Of a stretch of DNA of 32,061 nt, positions 3,532 through 19,489 are shown in pieces. The stretch is taken from positions 35,498 to 67,558 of the forward strand of contig PARE01000037.1 of NCBI GenBank assembly GCA_002709525.1, read 5' to 3'. This DNA comes from Magnetovibrio sp. GTDB taxonomy: Bacteria > Pseudomonadota > Alphaproteobacteria > Rhodospirillales > Casp-alpha2. Position 1 is the stretch's first letter. Each line of letters opens with the position of its first letter. The translations under genes were made by a program, and so were the position numbers. Below the pieces are notes generated by a model that did no database searches, was not told the origin of the DNA, and worked only from the letters and a program-made list of their open reading frames with translations.

Positions 3532-3591
3532 ATTCGCGTCGCTCTTCCGGATTGGATCGCCACGGTTTAAATGTAGGTGGCGACCCTTTCC

Positions 3592-3621
3592 ATAATCTTA
3601 AACCTTGTCATTTTGTGTCAA
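3592..3621 (-). promoter_or_regulatory. Possible internal sigma-70 promoter before shc
   Basis: Reading the minus strand, a perfect TTGACA (plus-strand 3621-3616) is followed after 18 bp by GATTAT (3597-3592), about 60 bp before the shc start. It lies in the only sizeable gap (105 bp) of the hopanoid run, so shc-hpnG may have their own promoter. The -10 box is poor, so this is a weak prediction. Confidence 0.3.
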
Positions 3622-3636
3622 AAAACTATCGCGATT

Positions 3637-4908
3637 TCAAGTATTTCCACCCATTTTATTCATTTTAACCAGAGCGGCGGACGCGGCAGAAGCACCAGAC
3701 CGGATACTACCCTCGATCGTTGCTGGAAGACCCGTGTCGGTCCAGTCACCTGCAAGGTAGAGATTATGCCACTGGGTTCGCCGATCTGGCCGCCGGCTCA
3801 GCTGGTCGGGAGTCTGGAGGAATGTGGCACGCTTCTCTTTGACTATGCGAAACGACGGCATCGGAACATCCACGAGACCATAGGCAGCCTGAATGTCCCT
3901 CCAAAACCGCACCGCGACTGTCGCCGATGGCAGGTTCACCAACGACGTAGCCGCACTAGCGGTGACTGAGACCACATCACCGCGAGAAAATAGCCACTCG
4001 GCGGTTCCTCCAACTACCCCCAGAAGCGGAAGCACATTAAAGACTTGGTTGACTCTAAAATGTCCATTTACAATCGGCGAGAAAGCATTTGGGCCGTCGA
4101 TACCGTCAAACATCTTTTGGGCGACAGCGGCAGGAACGGCACTGATCACACAATCATTTTCAGAGAGGTCGATCCGGTCCTTTCCAAACTCCAGCGCCGC
4201 CACCTTATCATTGATTTTATGAACACCTGTAAGGCGATGATTGAAACGCAGCTCCCCGCTCATGGCTGTCACGAAATCAACCGCAGGTAAAACCAATGAC
4301 CGGCCCAATCCCTGCGGAAAAAAAACGGGCCGACATGCAGCCTCTCCCTTAGCGAATGTCTCTGCAAAGACCTGTCGCATTGGAACGGCACCGGCTGCTG
4401 CTGGATCCGTATTTGTTACTGCAACAATGACCGGCGCCCAAAACCGCCGCCACAGGACGCCGCCCGTCGATATCACGTCCTTGACTGACTGGTTATCCTT
4501 GGCCCACATGATCCGACAGCTTTGAAGATAATCTGAAAGCGAAGCACCTGGGACGCGATTCCGAGAGGACATCAAAGACCAGGGGATCCGACCCTTGTCG
4601 GGTCGTACGGACCACCGAGTTCCGTCGGCTAGATCAACGAACGGAATATCTGCCGGCGAGTGAACATCGATGGTATTATCAGCCCCAATCAGGCGCAGAA
4701 AATCTCGTGTAGCGTGATTTCCGCTGAGGACGAGGTGATTGCCATTGTCTATCTCGCACTCTAATTTGTGATCAAAAAAGGATCGGCAACGCCCGCCGGC
4801 ATAACCGGCGGCTTCATGAACAATAACAGAAATGCCATGCCCGACCAATTGTACAGCAGCTGACAGTCCCGCCAGACCAGCGCCGATGATATGCGCCCGA
4901 CCACTCAC
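3637..4908 (-). CDS. hpnE: Hydroxysqualene dehydroxylase HpnE (squalene-associated FAD-dependent oxidoreductase)
   Basis: HpnE reductively removes the hydroxyl from hydroxysqualene in the HpnC/HpnD/HpnE route to squalene. The protein begins with an FAD-binding Rossmann fold (GAGLAG at residues 9-14, followed by a strand ending in an acidic residue, IVHEA) and ends with the flavin-monooxygenase-type segment LYLAGDWTDTGLPATIEGS. I chose the GTG at 4908. It forms a 4-bp GTGA overlap with the hpnD stop and puts the Rossmann strand directly at the N-terminus, giving 423 residues. The upstream ATG at 4983 would add 25 residues with no family resemblance, all inside hpnD. Translational coupling to hpnD is likely. 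Confidence 0.92.
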   Translation of the reverse strand: MSGRAHIIGAGLAGLSAAVQLVGHGISVIVHEAAGYAGGRCRSFFDHKLECEIDNGNHLVLSGNHATRDFLRLIGADNTIDVHSPADIPFVDLADGTRWSVRPDKGRIPWSLMSSRNRVPGASLSDYLQSCRIMWAKDNQSVKDVISTGGVLWRRFWAPVIVAVTNTDPAAAGAVPMRQVFAETFAKGEAACRPVFFPQGLGRSLVLPAVDFVTAMSGELRFNHRLTGVHKINDKVAALEFGKDRIDLSENDCVISAVPAAVAQKMFDGIDGPNAFSPIVNGHFRVNQVFNVLPLLGVVGGTAEWLFSRGDVVSVTASAATSLVNLPSATVAVRFWRDIQAAYGLVDVPMPSFRIVKEKRATFLQTPDQLSRRPDRRTQWHNLYLAGDWTDTGLPATIEGSIRSGASAASAALVKMNKMGGNT

Positions 4909-5795
4909 AACATGCCGTACCAGAACATCACCCAAAGTCGTACCATAGGTGATAGTCTCACGCGGCGGCGGGGCGGCATCCAACCTGTTTGAATTAATGC
5001 CGTCAAAATTCGTCTGTAGACCTCAAGCATCATCACCGCAGGACGTACGTCTTCCCTGTCACAGGTTTCGATAATCGCCAATGCCTCGTGAAAGTGTTGG
5101 GCCGCCCTGTCAGCCAGTTCCTTGCAAACATCGTGTAGGCGCGGGTCGCACATGACTGCCGCCAGGTCCTCGATCCTCGTAATGCCGTGCTTCGAGAGAA
5201 CATCGGCGGGTAGATAGAGCCTATCTCGTTCGGCGTCTTCATCCACATCGCGGAGAATATTGGTCATTTGCAGAGCTTGGCCCTGGGCAAAGGCAAGACG
5301 GTCGCCTGTGTACGCGTCAAGTCCGAACACCCGCGTCGACAGCCGGCCAACAGCCGATGCCACACAATCACAGTAGAATATCAGTTCTTCGAGATCCTTA
5401 ATTCGCACACGATCTCGGGTATCCATCTCCATGCCGGCAATGATGGCATTGAAATCTTCTTGACGCAGATGGAAGGTTTCTACTGCCGGCAACAGCGCGT
5501 GTCCAACGACGGAGCGTGTGTTGCCGGCAAACAGACGACCGATCTCATCCCGCCATTCGTCCAGCTTCTCGAGTTTCGCAGCTTCGGCTCCAGGTTCGCC
5601 AATGTCATCGGCTATGTCGTCGACTTCCCGGCAAAATGCATAGATTGCATACATAGCCGCGCGCTTTGCCGGCGGCAAACGCCGCATCGCCCAGTAAAAA
5701 GACGTGCCGGAAGCCTTGACGATACTCTCAACATGAATATCCGACCGCGTGGAGGGGGGTACGACTGATTTATGAATGACCGTTTGTTTTGTCAT
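4905..5795 (-). CDS. hpnD: Presqualene diphosphate synthase HpnD
   Basis: A 296-residue member of the squalene/phytoene synthase family, which condenses two farnesyl diphosphates to presqualene diphosphate. Both Asp-rich Mg-binding motifs are present: DDIADD at residues 59-64 and the RDVDEDAERDR helix at about 182-192, followed by LYLP. HpnD is told from HpnC by these two full motifs and by its position directly before hpnE. The stop overlaps the hpnE start by 4 bp. The first ~22 residues are a variable extension. After the promoter-proximal genes hpnC and hpnB there is a 36-bp gap to this start. Confidence 0.93.
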   Translation of the reverse strand: MTKQTVIHKSVVPPSTRSDIHVESIVKASGTSFYWAMRRLPPAKRAAMYAIYAFCREVDDIADDIGEPGAEAAKLEKLDEWRDEIGRLFAGNTRSVVGHALLPAVETFHLRQEDFNAIIAGMEMDTRDRVRIKDLEELIFYCDCVASAVGRLSTRVFGLDAYTGDRLAFAQGQALQMTNILRDVDEDAERDRLYLPADVLSKHGITRIEDLAAVMCDPRLHDVCKELADRAAQHFHEALAIIETCDREDVRPAVMMLEVYRRILTALIQTGWMPPRRRVRLSPMVRLWVMFWYGML

Positions 5796-5831
5796 GGTGC
5801 TAATGGATACACGACCGCACGGGCGACGTCA

Positions 5832-6971
5832 TCAGCTATAGTGCCGTCCCTTCCAGCCCCCACCTTTACCCTGCAAATGGCGCAGAGACGACGAAATCGT
5901 CATCATGCTGAAAAATAAAGCAGCAAAAGGCAGCCAAGCGGCACGCCACATGGGTTCGCCGTAAAGCTTTAAGGTAGGCCAATAGGAGAAGGCCATGATT
6001 GCCCAGGATACACCGCCAGTAAGTGCAATGTCGGAATGTCCAGAAGCAAGGCCATAAAATACGGCTGTCGGTGGGACTAGATAAACAATAACCATACCGG
6101 CCAGTGTTCCGATAAGCGATATAAATGAGTAATCCAGCTGCACGAACGCTGTTCGCGCGACCATATCCCAAATATCGCCCAGCGTATCGTATGCCCGAAG
6201 ACTACAGGTCTTGTCTGTCAAACCGAGCCAGATGGCCCCGTGCACTTTTATCAACCTAGCCATGGCGCAATCATCAATGAGTTGATCTCGAATTGGCTCG
6301 ACGCCACCAGCAAGCCGGAGGGTTTCGCGCCGGATTAGCATACACCCCCCAGCAGCCGCTGCGGTCGGGCTAACCGGATCGTTCACCCATGGAAATGGAT
6401 ACAACTTCTGGAAAAAGAACACGAACGCAGGAATCAGAAATTTCTCCCAAAAGCTCTGAGCCCTAAGTTTGACCATCAAAGATACTAAGTGCCGGTTTTC
6501 ACTTTCCGCCTTGTTGACTAATTGGGCGATGTTATCAGGTCCGTGTTCGATGTCTGCATCAGTCATCAAGATATATTCGGCATCAGGAAGATGGAGATTC
6601 GCCTGTGTCAGTCCCTGATGGATGGCCCAAAGCTTACCGGTCCAGCCGACTGGCAAGAGACTGCCAGAAACTATACGCAAGTCCTGCCAATCACCAGCAG
6701 CATCAGCGGTGCCATCATCGCTGCCATCGTCAACGACAATGACATGGATTTGGCCGGCGTAATTCTGTCGCATCAGCGACGCAACGGTTCGCCCAATAGT
6801 CGGTGCTTCATTCCTTGCCGGAATGATGGCGATGACGCCAGGCCTGTAAGATTGTCGACCGCTCTCCAAAAGTCGTTGATCGGCCCGCCAAAACCCGCCT
6901 CGGAAGAATTCCAGAACGAGCCAGATAGCCAAGGAAAATCCAGCCAACGGCATCATCATATCGGCGACCAA
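5832..6971 (-). CDS. hpnB: Hopene-associated glycosyltransferase HpnB (GT2, membrane)
   Basis: A 379-residue family 2 glycosyltransferase. Visible features are the N-terminal membrane helix (residues about 5-24), the nucleotide-binding strand IAIIPARNEA, VVDDGSDDGTAD, the metal-binding TDADIEHG, and a hydrophobic C-terminal half with about three more membrane segments. This is the architecture of HpnB, found in hopanoid loci; its acceptor and sugar are not established. The start at 6971 is a TTG. It is preferred because GAGGA stands about 6 nt upstream, while the ATG triplet at 6959 has no such site. The gene sits between hpnC and hpnD, which in many alphaproteobacteria are adjacent. Confidence 0.87.
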   Translation of the reverse strand: MVADMMMPLAGFSLAIWLVLEFFRGGFWRADQRLLESGRQSYRPGVIAIIPARNEAPTIGRTVASLMRQNYAGQIHVIVVDDGSDDGTADAAGDWQDLRIVSGSLLPVGWTGKLWAIHQGLTQANLHLPDAEYILMTDADIEHGPDNIAQLVNKAESENRHLVSLMVKLRAQSFWEKFLIPAFVFFFQKLYPFPWVNDPVSPTAAAAGGCMLIRRETLRLAGGVEPIRDQLIDDCAMARLIKVHGAIWLGLTDKTCSLRAYDTLGDIWDMVARTAFVQLDYSFISLIGTLAGMVIVYLVPPTAVFYGLASGHSDIALTGGVSWAIMAFSYWPTLKLYGEPMWRAAWLPFAALFFSMMTISSSLRHLQGKGGGWKGRHYS

Positions 6972-6992
6972 AATTATTCCTCGCCACCTAAA

Positions 6993-7871
6993 TTATATGG
7001 GGCGGCGCTGCAGCAAAACCCCAAGGGCAACGGGGATAACTCCCCGGATACATTGCCAAGCATATCCAGGCTTCGTGAGGGCTACACGGGTCGCAAGGGG
7101 GTCCTCAATCCGCAGCCGCGCGATCAAACGCTCGGCGATATTAAGAATCGCTGCCGATTCCATCGCTAATCGCCAGCACCTAACACCAACCGGCAAACTC
7201 CTCGCCTCGCCCATGAGATCCTCAGTCGCTGACAATGTCCGATTTAAGACCTGACGCACCTGCGGCGAGGATTGTTCTCCGGCCAATTCAACCACACCCA
7301 TGCCTTCTTCGCCCATCCAATCGCCCGGCAAATATACGCGGTTTAGTGTGAGAAAATCGTCTTTGCAATCCTGGAGATGATTGATCACCTGCAGTGCATT
7401 ACACAATGCATCTGACGGACCATACCCGTTATCGGATCCCCCGTGCAGATCGATTAGGTATCGTCCTACGGGGGAGGCAGAGCGAGAGCAATACTCCATA
7501 AGGTCAGGCCAATCGTCGTAACGGTTCTTCACCGCGTCTTGCTTAAAGGCGTCTATGAGGTCTAGACAGTGCCTGTTGGGGATATCTGTCTCCTCAAGGC
7601 TGGCACGCATTCGCAAGCCAATTTCGAACGCGCCGCCCACATCGCGACCGCCCTCCAAAGCCGCCGCGAAGCCATCAAGGCGTGTAACTTTATCTTCGGG
7701 TTCCAGTTCCGGATTATCGGCAATGTCGTCAATGGCGCGGGCAAACCGATAAAAAGTCGCAACATGTGGCCTTAAGGCCGCCGGGAGCAACCATGACCCA
7801 ACCGGGAAATTTTCATAAGCCGCATTTTTACCGGACGGCGTTTCAACACTCGGTTGGCAACTTTTATTCAT
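6993..7871 (-). CDS. hpnC: Hydroxysqualene synthase HpnC
   Basis: A 292-residue squalene/phytoene synthase-family protein that converts presqualene diphosphate to hydroxysqualene. The first Asp-rich motif is AIDDIAD (Asp at 48, 49 and 52). The second is NHLQDCKDDFL (Asp at 168, 171 and 172), a form typical of HpnC and clearly different from the motif in HpnD. The N-terminal segment ENFPVGSWLLPAALRPHV is a good HpnC signature. It is followed 21 bp later by hpnB and preceded 30 bp upstream by hpnM, so it belongs to the same transcription unit. Confidence 0.93.
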   Translation of the reverse strand: MNKSCQPSVETPSGKNAAYENFPVGSWLLPAALRPHVATFYRFARAIDDIADNPELEPEDKVTRLDGFAAALEGGRDVGGAFEIGLRMRASLEETDIPNRHCLDLIDAFKQDAVKNRYDDWPDLMEYCSRSASPVGRYLIDLHGGSDNGYGPSDALCNALQVINHLQDCKDDFLTLNRVYLPGDWMGEEGMGVVELAGEQSSPQVRQVLNRTLSATEDLMGEARSLPVGVRCWRLAMESAAILNIAERLIARLRIEDPLATRVALTKPGYAWQCIRGVIPVALGVLLQRRPI

Positions 7872-7901
7872 AACGTTGTCTAAAACGAGGGGGCTCCAGG
7901 T

Positions 7902-8540
7902 TCAAGAATTCGCCGCCAGACGTTTCCTCAATTCGCTTAATAGGCCCTCGATCTTGCCCCCATTCTTCCGAATGACAGAAGCAAATTCTTTTTGCTGAGT
8001 AAGCCCCATGCTCAGGCCTTCAACCATCAAATCGACAATCTTGAAGTTTTCATCCTTGTGGCTAATGCGCCAAATAACTGCGACAGGTTTTAATCCCACC
8101 GAGCGGTTGATCAAGGAATGAACCAAAATATCGTTCTTACCGCGAATTTCTGACCGGCCAACGTCCAGCTTTTCACCAGAATACTTGGCGAATCTATCGG
8201 CGTAAATAACAACCATCAAATCTTCAAACAACCTCAGAAATTCTTCACGTTGGCGTGCATTGGCGCGCCGCCAATATCGCCCTAAGACCCACTTTGCGAT
8301 TCCCTTAAAAGCAAAGTATTCCAACATTAATTTACGGAAACGACTCCTGCGTTCGGCCTTGCTAATATTCTGCGCCGTCAAGGATTGGATAGTACGTTCG
8401 GCAACCTTTGTGACGAATTTGCGAGCGTCTACAGTGACATGGTTATTATCCGCCGCCGCATTACCTACACCGACAGTTAAGCCCACAACCAGACAAATCA
8501 CTGGCAATGCTGCCTTCACCATTCGCTCGAACGATGCCAT
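7902..8540 (-). CDS. hpnM: Hopanoid-associated MlaC/Ttg2-type lipid-binding protein HpnM, periplasmic
   Basis: 212 residues. An N-terminal signal peptide is visible: basic residues, then a hydrophobic run ALPVICLVVGLTVGVG and a small-residue cleavage region near NAAAD (about residues 27-31). The mature part matches the MlaC/toluene-tolerance family: an all-helical first half (FRKLMLEYFAFKGIAKWVLGRYWRRA) and a beta-rich second half ending KIVDLMVEGLSMGLTQQKEFASVI, where the DLMVEGLSM block is a family hallmark. Such proteins carry lipids through the periplasm, and HpnM is tied to hopanoid export together with HpnN, which is not in this window. A strong AGGGGGA lies 7-8 nt before the ATG, and this is the first gene of the hopanoid run. 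Confidence 0.88.
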   Translation of the reverse strand: MASFERMVKAALPVICLVVGLTVGVGNAAADNNHVTVDARKFVTKVAERTIQSLTAQNISKAERRSRFRKLMLEYFAFKGIAKWVLGRYWRRANARQREEFLRLFEDLMVVIYADRFAKYSGEKLDVGRSEIRGKNDILVHSLINRSVGLKPVAVIWRISHKDENFKIVDLMVEGLSMGLTQQKEFASVIRKNGGKIEGLLSELRKRLAANS

Positions 8541-8662
8541 CGGACATTCCCCCTGTGGTTGTTATAGACTGCCTAGGGTAGAAGAAAATCACCACCACAG
8601 ATATTGATGGTATGACACAAAAGCTATTTCATTTATTAGATTTTTATCATTTGAGGAACTAC

Positions 8663-8684
8663 ATTTTATCGATATTGATAAAAT
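8663..8684. promoter_or_regulatory. Perfect 8-bp inverted repeat between hpnM and the GMC oxidoreductase gene
   Basis: The arms ATTTTATC (8663-8670) and GATAAAAT (8677-8684) are exact reverse complements with a 6-nt spacer, in a locally AT-rich divergent intergenic region of 225 bp. It could be a repressor operator for either gene, or both. No regulator for it is encoded next to it. Confidence 0.35.
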
Positions 8685-8765
8685 AATTCATCGATACACT
8701 ATTGTCTCCTCGAAGGAAAGTAGGCTAAGAGAACGGTCTCATCGCAGTATTTGAAATGCAAGAGC

Positions 8766-10394
8766 ATGCTATCCGCTTTTGAGCAATACGACTATGTTGT
8801 TGCGGGTGCTGGGTCCGCGGGATGCGTTTTGGCCAATCGATTGTCCGCCGATCCCGCGAAGAGGGTTCTGCTCTTAGAAGCTGGTGGGCGAGATTGGTAT
8901 CCTTGGATCCACATTCCCGTTGGCTATTTCAAAACCCTGCATAACCCGATCACGGATTGGAACTTCAAGACTGAGCCAGACCCGGGCTTGAACGGCAGGG
9001 TCATAGATTGGCCTCGAGGCAAAACGTTGGGTGGTTCGAGTTCAATCAATGGTCTCCTCTATATCCGCGGCCAACGCGAGGATTACGACCACTGGCGCCA
9101 ACTGGGCAATACGGGTTGGGCCTTCGACGACTTACTGCCCTATTTTATACGCTCGGAAGACTTTCAAAACGGGATTGATAAATTCCACGGCTGCGGCGGC
9201 GGTCTGTCCGTCGAAAACATGCGCGCCAAGCGGGATATTTCCGAGGCCTTGATTGCCGCCGCAGAAGAAATCGGTGTGCCGCGTAACGATGACTTCAACG
9301 GTGCGAAACAGGAGGGTGTTGGCTATTTTCAACAGACCGCGCGCAATGGCCGGCGCTGCTCCACGGCAGTAGGCTTCCTCAATCCAGTCAAAAACCGACC
9401 GAATCTCGATATAATTACCCACGCCCTAGTAGAGAAAATCCTGGTCAAAGATGATCGTTCAACAGGCATTGGCATCTCGGTAAAAGGGAGTTCTCACACA
9501 TTTGGATTGAACTCTGGCGGCGAGGTTATCCTCTCCGCGGGGGCCATTGGCTCACCGCAAATCCTGCAGCTATCCGGAATCGGCCCCGGGGACTTACTGC
9601 AAGGCCTTGGAATTCCCATCATCAAAGACTTGGCTGGCGTTGGCGAAAACCTGCAAGATCATCTTCAGATTCGCTCAGTCTACGAGGTAAACGTCCCCAC
9701 CTTTAACGAGGAAATTAACAGCCTCGTCGGTCGCATGAAGATCGGATTACAATACGTATTCTCTCGTAGCGGCCCAATGAGCATGGGGGCCTCACAAGTC
9801 GGCATTTTCGCGCGTTCGCGGCCCGGCCTCGATACGCCCGATATACAATTCCATTTCCAGCCCCTTAGCGCCGAAAAACCGGGTATTGAAATGCACTCCT
9901 TTCCGGGCATCACTCTTTCAGTCTGCCAGTTACGTCCTGAGAGCAAGGGTCGGGTCCAGATCATATCACCTGACCCGAAAACCTATCCAGCAATTCACCC
10001 CAACTATCTGGCGACACCGTCGGATCAACAGACGGTCGTCGACTCCCTAAAATTCACGCGTCGTTTGGCCGAAACAGAAGCCCTAAGACCCTATATTATT
10101 CGAAAGCAGCTTCCCGGCCCGAGAATCAAAACCGACGAAGATCTCTTGGATAGCGCCCGCAATATCGCTCAGACTATCTACCATCCAACCAGCACCTGCA
10201 AAATGGGATCCGACGTTACATCAGTAGTCGACGAACGGCTGCGGGTCCATGGAATCGCAGGATTACGTGTAGTAGATGCCTCGATAATGCCGACCATCGT
10301 GTCCGGCAATACCAATGCACCAACAATCATGATTGCGGAAAAGGCCTCCGACATGATTATTGAAGACGCTAAAGACCATTCCGTCGCTGCCTAA
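8766..10394 (+). CDS. GMC-family FAD oxidoreductase (choline dehydrogenase-like)
   Basis: With the ATG at 8766 the protein has 542 residues, normal for the family; a TTG at 8751 in the same frame is the alternative start. The N-terminus holds the ADP-binding fold ([17 protein letters not shown]) ending in LLLEAGG, followed by the GMC signature 1 region ([21 protein letters not shown]). Signature 2 is [20 protein letters not shown]. The C-terminal active-site pair is seen as His in [10 protein letters not shown] and Asn in [14 protein letters not shown]. Such enzymes oxidise alcohols to aldehydes with FAD; the substrate cannot be told from sequence. The next gene, 64 bp downstream on the same strand, is a PLP aldolase and may be cotranscribed. 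Confidence 0.9.
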
Positions 10395-10458: not shown

Positions 10459-11517
10459 ATGCCATCAATCTTGCCGCCGCCGCGCATCGATCTTTATTCG
10501 GATACCAAATCGAAACCATCGCCGGGCATGCGCAAGGCCATCGCAAATGCCGATGTCGGTGACGAGCAGCGTGACGAGGATCCCACTGTTCGCAAACTCC
10601 AAGAAATGACCTGCGAACTTCTGGGTAAAGAGGCCTCCCTATTCCTCCCGTCGGGCACCATGGGTAATGCCATCGCATATCGCGTTTGGGTCGAGCCCGG
10701 CCAGGAAGTTATCCTCGACAAGACCTGCCATGTACTGCACTCAGAAGCCGGCGGGCCAGCAGCTCTTTCCGGCGTCATGACCCGTATCTTGGACGGAACC
10801 GAGGGAGTCTTTACCGGGAAACAAGTTGAAGCCGCCATTCGGCCCTTGGGCCGCTACAATGTGCCTCAATCGGTGATGGTCTCTATCGAGCAAACGGCAA
10901 ACGCTGGTGGCGGTGCCATTTGGCCCTTGAGAAGCATCGAAGATGTTGGCGCAGTCGCCGATGCGCATAATTTGACCCTTCATATGGACGGCGCACGCCT
11001 ACTCAATGCCGTGGTCGCCACGAACATCTCGGCTGAGGCCTATGCTGCGCAGTGCGATAGCCTGTGGATTGACCTATCCAAGGGACTTGGATGCCCTGTA
11101 GGGGCCGTTCTCGCAGGCAGTGCCGACTTCATCCATCGCGCCCGGCGTTTCAAGCACCAGTTTGGCGGCGCAATGCGTCAGGCCGGAATCATTGCGGCGG
11201 CAGGCGTTTACGCGCTGGAGAATAACGTTGAGCGGATGGCCGAGGACCACGCTAACGCCCGAAAATTAGCGGAGGGCATCGCCAACACGAAAGGTCTTTC
11301 TCTGGAGTTTGGCTTGCCTCAAACCAACATGGTCTACTTCAATGTCGCCAAAGACCGCATGACTGCTCAGGAACTTCACGAGAAGCTTTGGGCCGATCAT
11401 GGGATCCGCATTGGTGTTTCCGGAGCTCAACGCTTCCGCGCGGTGACCCATATTGATATTAGCGCTGCGGATGTCGACGAAGCGCTGAGAGGCCTGAGTG
11501 CCGTGATGATGAACTGA
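10459..11517 (+). CDS. Threonine-aldolase-family PLP enzyme (beta-eliminating lyase superfamily)
   Basis: 352 residues, a fold-type I PLP enzyme close to low-specificity L-threonine aldolases. Features are the N-terminal IDLYSDTKSKPSPGMRKAI (family consensus DLxSDTxTxPt..M), VGDEQRDEDPTV, the LPSGTMGN phosphate-binding loop, the cofactor-facing Asp in HMDGAR (D177), and the Schiff-base Lys in WIDLSKGLGCPVG (K208). Such enzymes cleave beta-hydroxy-alpha-amino acids to glycine and an aldehyde. A good site, GAGGAG, precedes the ATG. The unusual 'YSDTKSKP' in place of 'RSDTVTRP' hints at a subfamily with a different substrate. It could share a transcript with the GMC oxidoreductase. Confidence 0.87.
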   Translation: MPSILPPPRIDLYSDTKSKPSPGMRKAIANADVGDEQRDEDPTVRKLQEMTCELLGKEASLFLPSGTMGNAIAYRVWVEPGQEVILDKTCHVLHSEAGGPAALSGVMTRILDGTEGVFTGKQVEAAIRPLGRYNVPQSVMVSIEQTANAGGGAIWPLRSIEDVGAVADAHNLTLHMDGARLLNAVVATNISAEAYAAQCDSLWIDLSKGLGCPVGAVLAGSADFIHRARRFKHQFGGAMRQAGIIAAAGVYALENNVERMAEDHANARKLAEGIANTKGLSLEFGLPQTNMVYFNVAKDRMTAQELHEKLWADHGIRIGVSGAQRFRAVTHIDISAADVDEALRGLSAVMMN

Positions 11518-11861: not shown

Positions 11862-12425
11862 CTAGCGATTGCGTTTCGCCACTTCGTTCATGAACCGGTC
11901 GCGAATCACGACTGGCGGAATAGTGATGTTTGGCACCGGAACGTTCCCCGACTCACACTTGCAGACAATAATAGTCATCTTGTTTCCTTCAAGGGCCGCC
12001 TTCAAAATGTTTGCCGTTTCTTCCGCCTGGCACTCAACAACGTTGTCGCAACCGCACGCCTCAGCTACCTTGGCCAATGACGTCTTCTTGCCTGTATAGG
12101 TCGGCTGGTCGCCGGTGGAGCCATAGCTGCCGTTGTCGATGATCAAAAGCACGAAGTTATCCGCCACATTATTGGCGATCGTCGGCAGAGTCCCAAAGTT
12201 AGTCAAGATCGATCCATCACCGTCAATGGCGACCACTTTTTCGTGTTGCGCTATGGCCAAACCTAGTCCAATTGACGAACAAAGACCCATGGTACCCAGC
12301 ATGTAAAAGTTGGTTGGCTGGTCATCCCACATGTGCAATTCCTGCGAGGGCAGACCAATGTTGCAAATTACTAGCTCGTCCGTGATTACCGGGACGATAG
12401 ATTTCAAAACTTCGCTGCGGATCAT
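11862..12425 (-). CDS. ThDP-dependent 2-oxoacid decarboxylase, beta (ThDP-binding) subunit, sulfopyruvate decarboxylase type
   Basis: 187 residues from the ATG at 12425. This start makes a 4-bp ATGA overlap with the stop of the alpha-subunit gene and has GGAGG about 10 nt upstream; the longer in-frame start at 12479 would lie entirely inside alpha and has no support. The ThDP/Mg motif is clear: IDGDGS, then the N of IDNGSYGSTGDQ about 30 residues later. The protein matches the C-terminal, cofactor-binding half of ThDP decarboxylases, as in ComE of methanogens and in bacterial sulfopyruvate and phosphonopyruvate decarboxylases. The substrate is not known. The neighbouring dehydratase suggests it acts on the 2-oxo acid that enzyme makes. 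Last gene of the three-gene minus-strand run. Confidence 0.85.
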   Translation of the reverse strand: MIRSEVLKSIVPVITDELVICNIGLPSQELHMWDDQPTNFYMLGTMGLCSSIGLGLAIAQHEKVVAIDGDGSILTNFGTLPTIANNVADNFVLLIIDNGSYGSTGDQPTYTGKKTSLAKVAEACGCDNVVECQAEETANILKAALEGNKMTIIVCKCESGNVPVPNITIPPVVIRDRFMNEVAKRNR

Positions 12426-12928
12426 AGGAGGCCCCTCCAGAAAGTGGCGTCGGTTAGGATTGCCGTCGGTTTCGCGCACATTAGCGTGTATTTCAGGATT
12501 TCCGGAAGTTCCTCGACGTCCTCACGCTTGTGGAAGTGGAAGGTCGGGATTCCAAGTTGCTGCAACAGCGGTTTAGTGTGAATAGCCATCTCCACTTGAC
12601 AGGCTACCGGTTCACCGAGCTCACCACGGAAGCTAATCAGCATGGGGAGAGGGATTTGGTAGAATTGGATCAGAGTCGCCAGGGTGTTGATAGTCACACC
12701 CAAGGCTGTATTCTGCATGATGATGCAGGGCGTCTTGCCACCCATATAGGCGCCCGCGCAAAGCCCCATGCCCTCGTCTTCCTTGTTCGAAGGCACATGG
12801 TGGATCTGACCGTTCTTGTCGAGCTCATCGATGACGCCCGCCAATTGCTTGCAAGGGACGGTGGTGACAAAGTCAACACCCCCCTGGATCAGATCGCCAA
12901 CGACTCGTTGCGAAATACCGTCTGACAT
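12422..12928 (-). CDS. ThDP-dependent 2-oxoacid decarboxylase, alpha (PYR-domain) subunit, sulfopyruvate decarboxylase type
   Basis: 168 residues from the ATG at 12928, chosen because AGAGAGGAAAC precedes it at good spacing. An in-frame ATG at 12952 would give 8 more residues and overlap the upstream gene by 8 bp. The segment VTTVPCKQLAGVIDEL, the conserved catalytic-type Glu in KEDEGMGLCAGAYMGGK and the GVTINTLATLIQFYQIPLPMLISFRGELGE block match the alpha subunit (ComD-like) of sulfopyruvate decarboxylase, equal to the pyrimidine-binding domain of larger ThDP enzymes. It must pair with the beta subunit encoded next to it. The window has no sulfolactate, taurine or phosphonate gene, so the name describes the family and not the substrate. 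Confidence 0.85.
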   Translation of the reverse strand: MSDGISQRVVGDLIQGGVDFVTTVPCKQLAGVIDELDKNGQIHHVPSNKEDEGMGLCAGAYMGGKTPCIIMQNTALGVTINTLATLIQFYQIPLPMLISFRGELGEPVACQVEMAIHTKPLLQQLGIPTFHFHKREDVEELPEILKYTLMCAKPTAILTDATFWRGLL

Positions 12929-12944
12929 TACTGTTTCCTCTCTG

Positions 12945-14117
12945 TTAGCCATCGATCAATGGCTTCAATACCATGTTGTAGAGTTTTGATTTTGTCTCCA
13001 CGCCAAGTCCTGGTGCCTCAGGCGGCTGAACCAGACCGTTTTCGATGACCGTCTCGTCACCAAACCCGCCGAATGGCTGAAAAACCAGCGGATAGGTCTC
13101 CGTGCCGCCCAACTGTAAGCCAGCCGCCAGATGTAATCCTAGCTGCTGTCCACCGTGAGGGCCGTGACGGCGCGTTGCCCAGCCCATGCCCTCCGCCATC
13201 CTCACAATTGAGATGAACTCGCTTGGGCCATAGCAGAGCGATGGGTCGAACTGCAACCAATCCTTGTCACGCCGCAACCCGCCGTGCCGGATGAGATTGA
13301 GCGCATCCCCGCGCGAATATAGGTTCTCCGCCGTGGCGATGGGCATAGTGCAAACTTTGGCCATCTCTGAATAGGCCTCGTAATCAAGAGGATCCACCGG
13401 CTCCTCAAACCACGCAAGGTCATATTGGGCCATGGCGCTCGCGTAATTCATCGCAGTGTCCAGATCTAGGGCAGCGTTAGCGTCGACGGCGAGGTTTTCA
13501 CCGTCTCGGGCAACTTCCAAAGCGGTTTGGATCCGCAACATATCCTCATCGATGGATCCACCACCGATCTTCATTTTCATCAGCGTGTAGCCGCTATCGC
13601 GGTAGCCCTGCATTTCAGTTCGCAGTCCATCGAGGCCCTTGACTGGATCGTAATAACCGCCGCCGGGATAGACGGGCACCTTTGCATCATAGTTACCATT
13701 ATTAAACCGATCGGCGATCACCCTATACAAGGGTCGCTCCTCGATCTTAGCAACCACATCCCAAATCGCCATGTCAATTGCACCGACGGCGAACGCGCGC
13801 TCGCCATGTCCACCCGGCTTCTCATTAGTCATCATGCAAGCCTGGATGCGGGCCGGGTCTAGGTTGTGTCCGGTGGCATCCAATAGGCTCTGCGGATCCG
13901 CTTCGAGAAGACGCGGGATCAGACGTTCCCGGAGCACACCCCCTTGGGCATAGCGGCCGTTGGAATTGAACCCGAACCCGACCACGGGTCTGCCGTCCCG
14001 GATCACATCCATTTCTACGGCGACGACACTATTCGTCATCCCCGAGAAATCGATAAACGCATTACGCATGGGCGACGAGAGAGATGTTGTGGTTTCTCGA
14101 ATTGCCGTGATGCGCAT
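12945..14117 (-). CDS. Enolase-superfamily acid-sugar dehydratase, D-tartrate dehydratase-like
   Basis: 390 residues, a mandelate racemase/muconate lactonizing enzyme-type protein. The catalytic set is complete: K181 and K183 in the KMK motif, metal ligands D212 (VDAN), E238 (FEEP) and E264 (AEN), and His 321 in HGPHGGQQ. The N-terminus (SSPMRNAFIDFSGMTNSVVA, then GFGFNSNGRYAQGG) and the C-terminal LGGTETYPLVFQPFGGF block closely resemble D-tartrate dehydratase of Bradyrhizobium. From memory its catalytic residues K184, D213, E239, E265 and H322 are each one position higher than here. Such enzymes turn a 2,3-dihydroxy acid into a 2-oxo-3-deoxy acid. It is the first gene of an operon with the decarboxylase subunits and is divergent from a GntR regulator. 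Confidence 0.85.
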   Translation of the reverse strand: MRITAIRETTTSLSSPMRNAFIDFSGMTNSVVAVEMDVIRDGRPVVGFGFNSNGRYAQGGVLRERLIPRLLEADPQSLLDATGHNLDPARIQACMMTNEKPGGHGERAFAVGAIDMAIWDVVAKIEERPLYRVIADRFNNGNYDAKVPVYPGGGYYDPVKGLDGLRTEMQGYRDSGYTLMKMKIGGGSIDEDMLRIQTALEVARDGENLAVDANAALDLDTAMNYASAMAQYDLAWFEEPVDPLDYEAYSEMAKVCTMPIATAENLYSRGDALNLIRHGGLRRDKDWLQFDPSLCYGPSEFISIVRMAEGMGWATRRHGPHGGQQLGLHLAAGLQLGGTETYPLVFQPFGGFGDETVIENGLVQPPEAPGLGVETKSKLYNMVLKPLIDG

Positions 14118-14200
14118 ACCGTGCTTCCCATCCTCATGGAACCGTTAGCGACGAAGGCCAATCGTCGTACATCCGCGCCTTGAACGAGTCAATATACTCT

Positions 14201-14215
14201 TATATGTGTTATATA
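14201..14215. promoter_or_regulatory. Candidate operator of the GntR/HutC regulator
   Basis: A perfect inverted repeat, TATAT (14201-14205) and ATATA (14211-14215) with 5-nt spacer, lies 23 bp before the regulator's ATG in the 121-bp divergent region shared with the dehydratase operon. Short AT-rich palindromes of this size are common GntR-family operators, but the arms are low-complexity, so the call is tentative. Confidence 0.35.
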
Positions 14216-14238
14216 GGAATTTAAATGAAAATCACATC

Positions 14239-14967
14239 ATGATCCGACCCGTGACGGGCCAAGGGCCACTCTACCGCCAAACTCGCGACCTAATAATCCG
14301 TCGCATCGCTGACGGTGCTTGGGAGCCGGGCCAACGCCTCCCAAGCGAGTGGGATTTAGCCGATGAGTTCGGAGTTTCTCAGGGCACCGTTCGTAAGGCA
14401 TTGAACGATCTGGCAGATGAAAATATGGTTGTGCGCCATCAAGGTCGTGGCACTTTCGTGGCCTCCCATACCTCCCAGCGCGAGCTTTTCCATTTCTTCC
14501 ACCTGGAAGCCCCGGGTGGCGTTCGCCAACTCCCAGTAACAAGTCGTCTGATTGGCGTAACCAGTCGTCGGGCAAGCCGCAACGACATGGAGCGTCTAAA
14601 TTTATCCATCAACGCCTATGTGGTCGACATACAACGGGTCCGAGATTTGGGCGGGAAACCGGTGATATCCGAGCATATCACCCTGGCCGCCAAACTCTTC
14701 CCCAGCCTAACCCAGGAAGACGATCCACCAAACGAACTCTATCAGTTTTATGAGCAGCGTTTTGGAATGACTGTCCATCGGGCAGTGGAACATCTGCGCG
14801 CGATTGCCGCTGGCGCTCGTGAAGCTGAACACCTTGGGGTTAAACAGGGCACTCCTCTCCTTGAGATTGACCGGGTCGCCGAGGCTGTCGATGGCATGCC
14901 CATTGAGTGGCGGCGCAGCCGCTGCGACACGCAAAACCATCGGTATCTCAGTGAAATTTTAAAGTAG
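14239..14967 (+). CDS. GntR-family transcriptional regulator, HutC subfamily (UTRA domain)
   Basis: 242 residues from the ATG at 14239; an in-frame GTG at 14206 falls in the putative operator and is less likely. Residues 10-76 form the winged helix-turn-helix (YRQTRDLIIRRIADGAWEPG, LPSEWDLADEFGVSQGTVRK, then the wing HQGRGTFV). Residues of about 95-235 match the UTRA ligand-binding domain, with the typical AGAREAEHLGV and GTPLLEIDRVA blocks. It is transcribed away from the dehydratase/decarboxylase operon, so it most likely represses that operon and responds to its substrate or product. The ligand is unknown. Confidence 0.9.
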   Translation: MIRPVTGQGPLYRQTRDLIIRRIADGAWEPGQRLPSEWDLADEFGVSQGTVRKALNDLADENMVVRHQGRGTFVASHTSQRELFHFFHLEAPGGVRQLPVTSRLIGVTSRRASRNDMERLNLSINAYVVDIQRVRDLGGKPVISEHITLAAKLFPSLTQEDDPPNELYQFYEQRFGMTVHRAVEHLRAIAAGAREAEHLGVKQGTPLLEIDRVAEAVDGMPIEWRRSRCDTQNHRYLSEILK

Positions 14968-15591: not shown

Positions 15592-15997
15592 ACAACTTCT
15601 CTATATAGTTTGATCAACCTGGGCGTTCGGCTCTCCCCGAATTATTTTGTTGGGTCCATGTCTGTCGTCCGCAGATACTTTCGATAGGAATCTTGAGCCA
15701 AGATAAATTTGTCTCCCAGACAAGAATTTTCACCCATGGCACCGCTGACGAAGACCCAATTCGCTTAATTTTAAACACGGTCGTAAATCGGTCCGGCTGA
15801 AACAGACCAATTGAGGTCTTTGTATGACATCACAGCCATAATCTTGCGGAGCCACCGCATAAGTTGTCGTGTTTTAAAGACCTTCCCGAGCTGATCGAAT
15901 CAGGGTGCAATTAAGGGTCAATTCACTATTGAGCTTTCCTGTTAGGCGGGCGCATCATGCAAATTATAACCGATCGCCAGATACTGAAGAGATTTTA
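15592..15997. other. Intergenic region, no gene seen
   Basis: 406 bp between the TPR pseudogene start and the CitE-like lyase start. No coding frame, RNA gene or clear repeat was recognised. The in-frame extension of the lyase from 15905 was rejected as non-coding. It should contain promoters for the lyase (and formerly for the pseudogene), but no convincing -35/-10 pair was found. Confidence 0.5.
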
Positions 15998-16858
15998 ATG
16001 CCTTTTGACCATCCCGTCATACCTCGCCGCAGTTTCATCTTCGCGCCAGGTCTGAAACCCGAGATGTATCCGAAAGCGCTCGCGTCTGGAGCCGATATAG
16101 TATGTGTCGAGTTGGAGGACGGGATCGCACCCAAAGACAAGGACACGGCGCGCGCCAATGCCTTGGCATTGTTCGCCGAACGCCAAGAAGACGACTGTGT
16201 CGAACGTATTGTCCGTATAAACTGCCTTCGATCAGGCTTCGGCATCAAGGATGTACAGGCGATACTTGATACGGATACGCCACCACCGGCCCTCATGCTG
16301 CCGAAGGTCATGACCCCTGATGAAGTGACCTGGCTTGACAACCTACTTACAGAGCGCGGACACGAGACGCGCCTACACATCATCATCGAGACTAATGCAG
16401 GTCTTGAGGCGGCCTATGACATCGCCCGATCCAGCCCGCGCATCGACGCCCTGTTCTTCGGCGGCGTCGACATGGCAGCGGAGCTCCGATGCCAGAACGC
16501 CTGGGAACCCCTTCTCTATGCGCGCTCTCGTGTCGCCCATGCCGCCGCCGGAGCCGGGATCGACGCCATCGATGTGCCATTCCTCGACCTCAATGACACG
16601 GACGGCATGGCACGGGAAGCGGAACTGGTCCGGGACCTAGGCTTCAGCGGAAAGGGCTCGATCCATCCGAGACAAATTGCAATTCTAAATGACGTCTTTA
16701 CCCCAAGCGCCGAGGAAGTCGCTCACGCCAAACGAGTGACCGAGGCCTTCGCGGAAGCCGACACCGGGCTCGTGGTCATCGACGGCAAGCTAATTGAAAA
16801 ACCGGTTCTCCGAGAAATGAGGCGAATCTTGGCTGTTGCTGCCCGGATCTCGGCCTAG
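15998..16858 (+). CDS. HpcH/HpaI-CitE-like CoA-ester lyase
   Basis: 286 residues from the ATG at 15998, chosen for the GAAGAGA site about 5 nt upstream and because PRRSFIFAPG at residues 9-18 is where family members start. Landmarks of the CitE/malyl-CoA lyase fold are the acidic VELEDGI (E40, D41), the substrate-binding Arg in VRIN (R73), LPKV at 101-104, the metal ligands E131 (IIIETNAG) and D158 (FFGGVDMA), and the GKGSIHPRQI block. Members cleave or form (S)-malyl-CoA, citramalyl-CoA and similar beta-hydroxy acyl-CoA esters. The catalytic loop reads NCLRSGFG where NPxxTxxG-like sequences are usual, so substrate prediction is unsafe. A monocistronic gene facing the M20 hydrolase. Confidence 0.85.
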   Translation: MPFDHPVIPRRSFIFAPGLKPEMYPKALASGADIVCVELEDGIAPKDKDTARANALALFAERQEDDCVERIVRINCLRSGFGIKDVQAILDTDTPPPALMLPKVMTPDEVTWLDNLLTERGHETRLHIIIETNAGLEAAYDIARSSPRIDALFFGGVDMAAELRCQNAWEPLLYARSRVAHAAAGAGIDAIDVPFLDLNDTDGMAREAELVRDLGFSGKGSIHPRQIAILNDVFTPSAEEVAHAKRVTEAFAEADTGLVVIDGKLIEKPVLREMRRILAVAARISA

Positions 16859-16925: not shown

Positions 16926-18170
16926 CTAAACTGCCTCCGCCGAGTCCAACATTACCTGCGCCAGAACCTGAGTCCCGGCAGCCAGGTCTTCTGGCGCAGC
17001 GTCTTCTCGTTCTGTGTGGCTAACGCCATCCTTGCATGGCACGAAGATCATCGCCGTCGGCGCAACATTGGCAATCTTGCAGGCATCGTGACCAGCGCCT
17101 GAAAACATATCCCGGCACGAAAAATTCCAGCGCGCGGCTGCCTCTCGGATTGATTGCACTAGATCCGCATCAAATGTGGCTACCTCAGAGTAGTTAGTTT
17201 CCAGGATTTCCAATTCTAGGTTCATATCAGCGGCAATAGCCTCGCAGACGCTGATCATCTCTACCTTCACCGCGGCCAAAGTTTCCGCGTTGGGATGGCG
17301 ACTATCGATGGTGAAAACCGTCTGGCCGGGGATGGTGTTACGGGAGTTCGGTCGCAACCGCACGTGACCCACCGTGATGACGGGCCAAGGCTCATGGTTG
17401 AAGGCCACAGCGTTTAACGCATTGGTCATCCGCGCCGCGCCCAAAAACGCGTCCTTGCGAAGGTTCATAGGCAGCGTTCCCGCGTGCCCCTCTTCGCCAG
17501 TAACAGTAATCTGGAAAGCCCGTTGACCCTGGGCGCCGAGGACCACCCCTATTGGTAGCTCCTCGTTTTCTAATATTGGCCCCTGCTCGATGTGATTCTC
17601 GAAATAGGCCTTAATCGGAAAGCCGCCGCAGCGCTCAAGCCCAGCATATCCAATGCGCACCAGTTCGTCTCCAAACCGGATGCCGTTAGGGTCAACGCCG
17701 TCCAGAACTTCTGCTTCCGGGCGTAGACCCGCAAACACGGCGGAGCCCATGGTTTTGGTAGTGAATCGGCAGCCTTCCTCATCCGTCCAGACGACGATAT
17801 CCAAGGAATGTCGGGTGCGAATGTCGGCATCATTAAGCGCACGAACCACCTCAAGCCCTGCTAGCACTCCATAAGCTCCATCGAAACGACCACCAAGGGG
17901 CTGAGTATCCAAATGGCTGCCGGTCATCACCGGCGGCAGATCCAGTTCCGTACCAGGACGGCGAACGAAGATATTGCCCACCGTATCGACCCGCACTTGA
18001 CAGCCTGCGTTCTTCGCCCAAGAAACGAAGAGATCGCGGGATGCCTTATCCTCGTCGCTGAGAGACAGACGGCAGACGCCGCCACCCGAGGTGGCCCCTA
18101 TCTTCGCCATTTCCATATGGGATTGCCATTGCCGATCCCCGTCAATTCGGGGGGCTGTCACGTCACTCAT
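16926..18170 (-). CDS. M20-family Zn-dependent amidohydrolase (N-carbamoyl-amino-acid hydrolase / allantoate amidohydrolase type)
   Basis: 414 residues, normal length for the hydantoinase/carbamoylase family. The binuclear metal ligands expected for the family are visible: H86 (TGSHLDTQ), D97 (GGRFDGAYG), E132 (TDEEGCRF), H193 (ENHIEQGP) and H361 (GAGHDACKIA). The lid domain carries GEEGHAGT and the substrate-contact region RLRPNSRNTIPG. Members hydrolyse N-carbamoyl amino acids, allantoate, ureidoglycolate or beta-ureidopropionate. The start overlaps the stop of the upstream amidase gene by 4 bp (ATGA), so the two are cotranslated and probably act in one route releasing ammonia from an amide- or ureido-type substrate. 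The exact substrate is not predictable. Confidence 0.88.
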   Translation of the reverse strand: MSDVTAPRIDGDRQWQSHMEMAKIGATSGGGVCRLSLSDEDKASRDLFVSWAKNAGCQVRVDTVGNIFVRRPGTELDLPPVMTGSHLDTQPLGGRFDGAYGVLAGLEVVRALNDADIRTRHSLDIVVWTDEEGCRFTTKTMGSAVFAGLRPEAEVLDGVDPNGIRFGDELVRIGYAGLERCGGFPIKAYFENHIEQGPILENEELPIGVVLGAQGQRAFQITVTGEEGHAGTLPMNLRKDAFLGAARMTNALNAVAFNHEPWPVITVGHVRLRPNSRNTIPGQTVFTIDSRHPNAETLAAVKVEMISVCEAIAADMNLELEILETNYSEVATFDADLVQSIREAAARWNFSCRDMFSGAGHDACKIANVAPTAMIFVPCKDGVSHTEREDAAPEDLAAGTQVLAQVMLDSAEAV

Positions 18171-19489
18171 GCACTTTTCTCCTCAACCCAGCGCACCGCG
18201 CGCATCAAATCTGCGTCTCTTCCTCGCTTACCTATTACCTGAACCCCTATGGGCATGCCGTTCGGCCCCTTAAGAAGCGGCAGCGACATAGTTGGCAACC
18301 CGGTCAATGTCCAAATTCGCTGGAACGCAGCGTTACCGGTGGACTCTAGCCCTACAGGCGCCTCACCCGGCGCCGCCGCGGTGATCAGCGCATCGTAGTG
18401 CTCGAATAAGCCATCCAGGGCGGCAATCAGGGAATCGGTTAACTCACGCGCTGCTATATAATCCGCCGCAAGAATATCGCGTCCGGCAACGATACGGCGC
18501 ACAGTTTCTACCTGCAGCTGATCCTCGTGATTATCGACGTATTCGCGAAGGTTCATCCATACGTTCGCGTTCATAACTATTGCCTGAGCCTCCAAGGCGC
18601 CATCGAAGATCCCTCCCAAAGTCACCTCGGGAATATCGCCAAGACCATCGATGTAGGCCCCAAACAATTCATCCATGTAGGGTTCGGCGAACGCCCAGGG
18701 CGGGCCCTTGATGAAGGCCAATCGCAGGGGTGAATCATCTGTTCCTGCAAGGGCCTTTAACAATCCCGCGTTGGGATGGGCTCGCATGTCAAAATCTCTC
18801 GGGTCACGGACCATCAAGACATCTCCAGCCATGGCCACATCCTTGAGGCTACGGGCATAAATACCCAAATGATCAAGGGCGCGAGCCAGGATAAACACGC
18901 CGTGACGGGAAATGCTTCCATAGGTGGGCTTGTAGCCGTGGACGCCACAAAAAGACGCAGGCCGCAGCATGGACCCGCCAGTCTGAGATCCTAAGGCGAG
19001 GGGCACCATGAAATCCGCTACCCCGGCGCCGGAGCCGCTAGACGATCCGCCCGGCGTGCGCGCTGTATCATGAGGATTGTGGGTGCCACGCTGCCCAGTC
19101 ATGGCAAACTCTGTGGTGACTGTCTTGCCCAAAATTATTGCGCCCGCTGCCCGCAACAGGGCTGTTGACGTCGCATCACGGCTTGGTCGGCGCCCCTTTA
19201 GTTGATCAGAGCCGCTCTCCGTCGGCATATCAGCAGTGTCGATGATGTCCTTCAACCCAACCGGCACGCCATGCAACAGATCCAACGGGTTGCCGGCGGC
19301 CCTGTGTTCATCACAGGCCCGAGCCTGCTTAAGGGCTAGGTCTGGATCCCAAAAGGCCCAGGCCTTAACAATATCCTCTCGCTCAGAAATTCGCTCTATG
19401 CACGATTGAGTCACTTCCTCAGCGGAAACGTCTCCCTGGTTGATGGCGTCAGCCATCTGCGAGGCCGTCCAGGTATTGATCTCATTCAC
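18167..19489 (-). CDS. Amidase-signature-family amidase
   Basis: 440 residues with the whole amidase signature: catalytic Lys K80 in GVPVGLKDIID, the GGSSSGSGAG loop holding the cis-Ser at about 149-151, and the nucleophile S173 in GSQTGGSMLRPAS, followed by VHGYKPTYG. These Ser-cisSer-Lys enzymes hydrolyse amides to acid and ammonia in the cytosol, and include allophanate hydrolases and many aliphatic or aryl amidases. The C-terminal part (GLPTMSLPLL, PIGVQVIGKRGRDADLM) is standard, and no allophanate-specific second domain is present. It overlaps the M20 hydrolase by 4 bp. GGAGAGGAG lies just upstream of the ATG at somewhat long spacing. Confidence 0.88.
   Translation of the reverse strand: MNEINTWTASQMADAINQGDVSAEEVTQSCIERISEREDIVKAWAFWDPDLALKQARACDEHRAAGNPLDLLHGVPVGLKDIIDTADMPTESGSDQLKGRRPSRDATSTALLRAAGAIILGKTVTTEFAMTGQRGTHNPHDTARTPGGSSSGSGAGVADFMVPLALGSQTGGSMLRPASFCGVHGYKPTYGSISRHGVFILARALDHLGIYARSLKDVAMAGDVLMVRDPRDFDMRAHPNAGLLKALAGTDDSPLRLAFIKGPPWAFAEPYMDELFGAYIDGLGDIPEVTLGGIFDGALEAQAIVMNANVWMNLREYVDNHEDQLQVETVRRIVAGRDILAADYIAARELTDSLIAALDGLFEHYDALITAAAPGEAPVGLESTGNAAFQRIWTLTGLPTMSLPLLKGPNGMPIGVQVIGKRGRDADLMRAVRWVEEKSA

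Follow-up and report, generated by a model that had tools for sequence, protein, structure and literature searches.

What does an enzyme resembling D-tartrate dehydratase do in an operon with the two subunits of a sulfopyruvate decarboxylase? The question is raised by a 32,061-nucleotide stretch of DNA (hereafter the window) from Magnetovibrio sp. (GCA_002709525.1, contig PARE01000037.1, positions 35,498 to 67,558), in which an enolase-superfamily gene precedes comD and comE and is divergent from a regulator. We lean, if only slightly, towards the view that this enzyme belongs to a new enolase-superfamily subfamily, the first from the TarD branch, that acts on a C3 sulfonate as a racemase, a sulfo-lyase or a sulfopyruvate-making dehydratase, and that is kept while the surrounding pathway changes between the SuyAB and ComDE-Xsc routes. 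Our tentative first choice is that a sulfolactate/sulfopyruvate locus took in a sister enzyme of TarD, most likely acting on sulfolactate. The locus comprises the following features:

12945-14117, minus strand: enolase-superfamily (MR/MLE) dehydratase-like gene with a complete catalytic set, in a sister clade of D-tartrate dehydratase-type proteins
12422-12928, minus strand: comD, sulfopyruvate decarboxylase alpha subunit (TIGR03845); likely start ATG at 12928, open reading frame (ORF) opening at 12952
11862-12425, minus strand: comE, sulfopyruvate decarboxylase beta subunit (TIGR03846); likely start ATG at 12425, ORF opening at 12479
14206-14967, plus strand: divergent GntR-UTRA regulator, whose homologues adjoin comDE or suyAB in relatives
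14118-14205, no strand assigned: divergent intergenic region, presumed from its position only to hold the promoters of both units

The dehydratase-comDE operon

A reading made earlier from the sequence only had proposed a three-gene unit transcribed away from a HutC-type regulator, and the ORF calls bear out both the divergent arrangement and the order of dehydratase, comD and comE on the minus strand. The likely starts of comD and comE were chosen by ribosome-binding-like sequence upstream. The comD ATG at 12928 lies 16 nt beyond the dehydratase stop, and the comE ATG at 12425 overlaps the comD stop by 4 nt, in agreement with the overlap that had been proposed. The regulator is classified by its sequence as a HutC-like member of the GntR-UTRA group and not as HutC proper, its score against the HutC model (116.5 bits) being below the cut-off of 220.

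Both decarboxylase subunits pass their NCBIfam cut-offs (ComD, 152.5 bits vs 147.95 for TIGR03845; ComE, 234.8 bits vs 221.5 for TIGR03846), and the ComE translation, read by eye, contains GDG-X26-N, which we take to be the thiamine diphosphate (ThDP)-binding motif. Relatives of comD in 57 named contigs are 56-93% identical to it; the 13 plasmid matches above 60% are 72-74% identical, and 12 of these are annotated as sulfopyruvate decarboxylase alpha subunit. A Leisingera locus, the one opened, encodes a TRAP transporter, a "histidinol dehydrogenase", a short-chain dehydrogenase/reductase (SDR), an alcohol dehydrogenase, ComD, ComE and an alpha-hydroxy acid oxidase; the text available from PMC11382572 relates HpsN to the histidinol dehydrogenase family. 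Among the 57 comDE loci, an hpsN homologue is found nearby in eight, where comD is 67-74% identical to that of the window. A D-2-hydroxyacid dehydrogenase gene occurs in 24 and an aldehyde dehydrogenase gene of one kind in 23, and these genes probably mark a sulfonate pathway; a hydroxyacid dehydrogenase or oxidase gene lies within 6 kb in 32 of the loci.

The window genome (82% complete, with 5% estimated contamination) encodes sulfoacetaldehyde acetyltransferase (Xsc) on another contig (940.9 bits vs a cut-off of 676.4, which none of 14 control genomes exceeded). A phosphate-acetyltransferase-type gene follows xsc, and an omega-aminotransferase gene (AptA model, over cut-off) lies on its other side. 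Because both subunits pass their cut-offs and Xsc is encoded in the genome together with a phosphate-acetyltransferase-type protein, an ordinary sulfonate role is supported for what appears, by sequence, to be a typical ComDE. The statement in the sequence-only reading that the usual role of the decarboxylase lacked support applies to the window alone and not to the genome; doubt about that role is not borne out by the model matches, the plasmid annotations, the Leisingera locus or xsc with its neighbour. That reading had also found no sulfonate gene, which holds, comDE apart, for the window genes between 1 and 22226 compared with Pfam but fails for the genome, which has Xsc. Judged from these families, the operon very probably feeds the known pathway, in which ComDE would convert sulfopyruvate to sulfoacetaldehyde, and Xsc with phosphate acetyltransferase, encoded elsewhere in the genome, would convert sulfoacetaldehyde to acetyl phosphate, sulfite and acetyl-CoA. 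The HpsN matches of the window genome are only 48% and 36% identical, vs 57-61% for the type found in relatives; the locus of an HpsN-like gene of the other kind (~48%; L247, G000:C4:6000-22000) also holds an SDR gene and an apparent TRAP transporter.

A dehydratase subfamily beside comDE and suyAB

The same four genes (regulator, dehydratase, comD and comE) occur together in the window species and in genomes G001 and G003. Two other species of the genus, G002 and G004, instead have the regulator followed by a suyA-suyB-dehydratase-slcC-comC series of homologues, and neither genome yielded a match to ComD. This placement of the dehydratase inside a suyAB-slcC-comC operon points to a sulfonate substrate. 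The name suyB rests on relatives and neighbours, there being no SuyB model among the NCBIfam matches: the G002/G004 protein is 72.7% identical to a copy in an S. mexicanum suyB-slcC-comC cluster and 68.6% identical to a UxaA-family gene product of the Cupriavidus pinatubonensis hpsN-hpsO cluster, and its Pfam families are those of galactarate/altronate dehydratase. Another arrangement, in G011, consists of the regulator, suyA, suyB, a dehydratase remnant and comC, with an hpsN homologue ~5 kb from the remnant. The remnant (L210, G011:C8:236000-249000, at ~6770-7930) has broken frames and lies between suyB and comC, and its readable part shares the subfamily residues around H321. Two further genera have related operons: four species of g7 (G010, G021, G027 and G035) have the regulator, suyA, suyB, slcC and comC but no dehydratase gene between them, and seven species of g6 have the regulator, comD, comE, slcC and comC.

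The threonine-aldolase-type and GMC genes found on one flank of the window operon are located past this gene series in G002. In G004, whose locus (L130) gave mostly antisense ORFs and was read by probe matches alone, the regulator side carries the amidase and hydrolase genes known from the opposite flank in the window. The first two of these flanking genes, neither of which is claimed for the pathway, are as follows:

10459-11517, plus strand: threonine-aldolase-type gene (Beta_elim_lyase), conserved flank
8751-10394, plus strand: GMC oxidoreductase, choline-dehydrogenase type, conserved flank

Homologues of hpsN, hpsP and hpsO are found ~14 kb past comC in G002, preceded by TRAP-transporter genes identified by eye. 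This block (L246, G002:C11:17000-30819) is situated between GMC and hopanoid-type genes, which are adjacent in the window, so the block is absent there. The hopanoid-type genes of the window (1573-8540) encode a squalene-hopene cyclase, an amine-oxidase-type protein, two squalene/phytoene synthases, an HpnB glycosyltransferase and an MlaC/HpnM-type protein. Past the regulator are a gene for a CitE-like C-C lyase (15905-16858), whose nearest model is the itaconate-degradation lyase RipC with a score under the cut-off and which is also beside the operon in locus L009, and an amidase with a hydantoinase/carbamoylase-type hydrolase (16926-19489), a pair that stays near the locus in relatives including G004, G011 and G022.

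The window dehydratase retains the catalytic set noted in the sequence-only reading (K183, D212, E238, E264 and H321), and these residues, with K181 and D291, are invariant in an alignment of the window protein with 16 chosen relatives. We take the catalytic Lys, the His-Asp dyad (H321 and D291) and the three metal ligands (D212, E238 and E264) to have TarD-type roles, with Lys183 and His321 presumably facing C2 of the substrate from two sides, as in the family. The nearest solved structures are 4KEM (485 bits) and Bradyrhizobium japonicum Bll6730 (1TZZ, 2DW6 and 2DW7; 448 bits), the latter of which we take to be a D-tartrate dehydratase. In a tree of 65 proteins, which did not include Bll6730 itself, eight copies (69-100% identity) group together as a single clade (support 99/91), referred to here as the subfamily; a protein from G076 is its sister, the nine together having support of 100/99. 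The subfamily falls outside a 44-row group (99/96) that contains the tarD-labelled gene, the gene of 4KEM and two copies linked to tartrate dehydrogenase. Several barrel residues close in sequence to the catalytic ones, among them D157, A215, S293, C295, H318, G319 and Q324, are fixed in the subfamily and occur in at most 2 of 56 other relatives. The G076 locus (L135, G076:C3:545000-563000, 2627-10349) has the sister-branch enzyme between aminotransferase-type and tartrate dehydrogenase genes, with upstream transport genes read by eye as NitT/TauT-like. The window genome (G000) has six additional, distant matches to the dehydratase (27-33% identity) on contigs C34, C13, C3 and C38, three of them on C34.

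The dehydratase is under purifying selection. Simple Nei-Gojobori estimates of the ratio of nonsynonymous to synonymous substitution (dN/dS), made between the window species and same-genus relatives at a high synonymous divergence of 0.7-1.2, were ~0.07 for the dehydratase, 0.04 for comD, 0.06 for comE and 0.06 for the regulator; the dehydratase values are low beside both comDE and suyAB (0.070 and 0.074, 0.076). Within the collections searched the subfamily was found only in the window's family, where 8 of 48 genomes have a member: no protein at subfamily level was detected in a sample of 385 genomes of the class (where the next best match was 59%, with four candidates scored per genome) or in the 646 plasmid records with a match (all <60%).

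Linkage to sulfolactate-pathway genes is far more frequent in the subfamily than among its relatives. A comD or suyB gene lies within 10 kb at 7 of 8 subfamily places, the exception being the free-standing G045 copy, vs 1 of 31 places of more distant relatives; that lone place is the decayed G011 copy, and its reassignment after the fact gives 8 of 9 vs 0 of 30. Every one of the eight subfamily genomes encodes ComD or SuyB at some position, yet the same is true for 24 of the 31 other places, and mere co-occurrence in a genome therefore says little. The co-occurrence of dehydratase and decarboxylase that the sequence-only reading had suggested checking is weak in general (adjacent in 2 of 57 comD-type loci on named contigs and ~9 kb away in 1). 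The two pathway genes themselves were never found together: among 150 genomes, comD was present in 20 and suyB in 37 (E up to 1e-90). The chance probability of no overlap is 0.002 over all of them and 6e-7 for the 48 genomes of the family, of which 19 have comD and 20 suyB. These probabilities, like the linkage tests, ignore relatedness, and the comD counts omit 30-35% matches in G096, G108 and G149, which are absent from the suyB list too. In the portion of a published survey of hpsN genomes that was available, CuyA is listed as overlapping with SuyAB and with Xsc, and no overlap between SuyAB and Xsc is named (PMC11382572).

Candidate reactions of the dehydratase-like enzyme

The order of the genes and their families are observed; what the first enzyme acts on, and how, is inferred as follows. 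The TarD-sister enzyme would take the C2 proton of sulfolactate by means of Lys183 and His321. If the proton were returned on the other face, the enzyme would be a one-enzyme sulfolactate racemase, a specific assignment that we consider somewhat unlikely; if sulfite were expelled, it would be a sulfolactate sulfo-lyase, which is less likely still. SuyB, too, is a member of a sugar-acid dehydratase family. The racemase and sulfo-lyase reactions are ranked first because both use a substrate already present at the locus. Several observations weigh against sulfolactate as the substrate. Homologues of slcC and comC, published as a two-enzyme sulfolactate racemase in the text available from PMC12421959 and PMC11382572, are also held by G002 and G004, and a further racemase would be redundant there. 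In G011 the dehydratase has decayed while suyAB and comC were kept, so the pathway can do without it. The G045 dehydratase is free-standing, beside a gene read as an aconitase fragment, and those of G022 and G028 are separated from the comD operon, at distances of 9.1 and 5.6 kb from comD. The window operon itself has no linked sulfolactate dehydrogenase, and the best ComC-like and SlcC-like matches of the window genome (41% and 36%) are on other contigs. The N-terminal loops of the dehydratase closely match those of Bll6730, and the G076 sister gene is immediately followed by one whose identity to annotated tartrate dehydrogenases is 62-67%. Lastly, all linked genomes come from one family and are mostly draft assemblies, which leaves few independent events. 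The possibility that the G045 fragment is a suyB cut off at the contig end was rejected, as it matches no probe and reads as aconitase.

The strongest competitor, possible and nearly as likely as the racemase/sulfo-lyase reading, is a passenger tartrate dehydratase that converts a tartrate isomer to oxaloacetate for central metabolism and merely has its locus and regulator in common with an ordinary comDE, with no joint pathway. A tartrate dehydratase needs no partner, and the match to a tarD-labelled gene (56% identity), the complete set of TarD-type catalytic residues and the position of the G076 gene before tartrate dehydrogenase are all in keeping with it, as are the free-standing G045 copy, the detached G022 and G028 copies and the decay in G011 without loss of suyAB. 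Of seven plasmid loci opened, two also have a relative that adjoins an annotated tartrate dehydrogenase gene or is one gene away from it, and a third has one next to dctA. Against a passenger are the 7 of 8 vs 1 of 31 linkage to comD or suyB, the position inside the suyAB-slcC-comC operon of two species and the fixed barrel residues that are rare elsewhere. Neither of two tartrate dehydrogenase probes nor a DctA probe found a match in nine subfamily stretches of 6-32 kb each (the window, L008, L009, L129-L133 and L210, thus including the G011 remnant), whereas 4 of 12 control stretches were matched by the same probes, the probes themselves having been drawn from three of the four.

An enzyme that remained a true dehydratase could instead act on 2,3-dihydroxy-3-sulfopropanoate, the sulfonate analogue of tartrate, to give sulfopyruvate for ComDE or for ComC and SuyAB. 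All six operons or remnants have a sulfopyruvate-using neighbour, comDE in G000, G001 and G003 and comC in G002, G004 and G011. In the three comDE operons that hold the dehydratase, no sulfolactate-dehydrogenase-type gene was found within 6 kb (the G001 contig being only 6.2 kb long), whereas one is present at 14 of 15 further comDE loci examined in the family, a count that leaves out the short G043 comD stretch and in which three loci have only an LhgO-like gene that may be housekeeping. Such an LhgO-like flavoenzyme gene is beside comDE in G022 and G028, where it may be the housekeeping copy, being the only match of those genomes; the other seven genomes searched have a 57-64% LhgO homologue on a contig other than that of comDE or suyB, with two more at 36% in G011. 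The missing dehydrogenase is a weak argument, since 25 of the 57 comDE loci also have none within 6 kb by the same probes, the dehydratase being present in only two of these, and the three genomes belong to one clade; for the same reason little weight was given to the idea that the dehydratase simply replaces an absent sulfolactate dehydrogenase. The substrate, moreover, would be an alpha-hydroxysulfonate for which we know of no natural source, equivalent to tartronate semialdehyde with bisulfite added. We regard this reaction as improbable.

The sequence-only reading had proposed that D-tartrate is dehydrated to oxaloacetate, which the decarboxylase turns into malonate semialdehyde. The TarD-like first enzyme and the standing of oxaloacetate as the carboxylate analogue of sulfopyruvate make this feasible on paper, and nothing else was found in its favour. 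A typical ComDE, Xsc in the genome, the hpsN homologues and hydroxyacid dehydrogenase or oxidase genes at comDE loci, and the suyAB-linked dehydratase of two genomes lacking a ComD match all argue against it, and the route is very improbable. A sulfonated or phosphonated substrate had also been offered. The G002 and G004 operons point to the sulfonate half of that suggestion; the phosphonate half, with the ThDP enzyme as a phosphonopyruvate decarboxylase, is to be rejected as extremely improbable. The families are related and there is a weak match to TIGR03297, but the subunits, each of which can match only part of this one-chain model (cut-off 312.5 bits), score 129.8 and 80.5 bits, no phosphoenolpyruvate (PEP) mutase over cut-off was found in the window genome, and the sister species have a suyAB context.

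If sulfolactate is indeed the substrate, a single enolase-superfamily enzyme acting on it would constitute a new step, with chemistry that is novel for the family. The text available from PMC11382572 and PMC11131964 describes 2,3-dihydroxypropane-1-sulfonate (DHPS) and sulfolactate as important marine organosulfur currencies. Species that swap suyAB-slcC-comC for comDE around the same gene make the role of the dehydratase testable.

Comparison with known systems

Sulfolactate is degraded, in the published accounts available in part from PMC11382572 and PMC12421959, by oxidation to sulfopyruvate or by SuyAB cleavage, the routes named being SuyAB, ComDE-Xsc and CuyA, while two dehydrogenases, SlcC and ComC, interconvert the enantiomers. 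Exact-term searches of one open-access library returned no paper joining tartrate dehydratase to sulfopyruvate decarboxylase, an enolase-superfamily dehydratase to phosphonopyruvate decarboxylase, mandelate racemase to sulfolactate or the enolase superfamily to organosulfonates, and none on a sulfolactate racemase or on sulfopyruvate decarboxylation with malonate semialdehyde; SfcF, discussed below, escapes these terms.

The window locus resembles the ComDE-Xsc branch of sulfolactate/DHPS degradation described for Alphaproteobacteria in the available part of PMC11382572, with comDE over the cut-offs, a genome that encodes both Xsc and a phosphate-acetyltransferase-type protein, and comD relatives that stand with an hpsN homologue in eight named contigs. 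It differs in the lack of a linked sulfolactate dehydrogenase, in the low identity of its HpsN matches in an incomplete genome and in having a TarD-sister enzyme as its first gene. The SuyAB-SlcC-ComC operon, as outlined in the accessible text of PMC12421959 and PMC11382572, is present in G002 and G004 beside a homologous regulator, but with the dehydratase inserted between suyB and slcC; the window genome has no suyB match at E 1e-90. With TarD (Bll6730) the enzyme shares its family, catalytic residues and N-terminal loops. In the tree, which did not include Bll6730, it belongs to a clade apart from the tarD-labelled gene and the two tartrate-dehydrogenase-linked ones, but its G076 sister also adjoins a tartrate dehydrogenase gene; the enzyme has barrel residues of its own and a sulfolactate gene context.

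The closest parallel in genomic setting is SfcF, which the text available from PMC12421959 describes as a sulfogalactonate dehydratase acting on a C6 sulfo-sugar acid. In S. mexicanum a candidate taken as SfcF by its family, its neighbours and that paper's naming of the strain belongs to the enolase superfamily and is encoded in a sulfonate gene cluster that also holds suyB, slcC, comC and a GntR-type regulator gene. The window dehydratase is only 27% identical to this probable SfcF over 239 residues, and by analogy SfcF is a precedent for enolase-superfamily enzymes in sulfonate loci.

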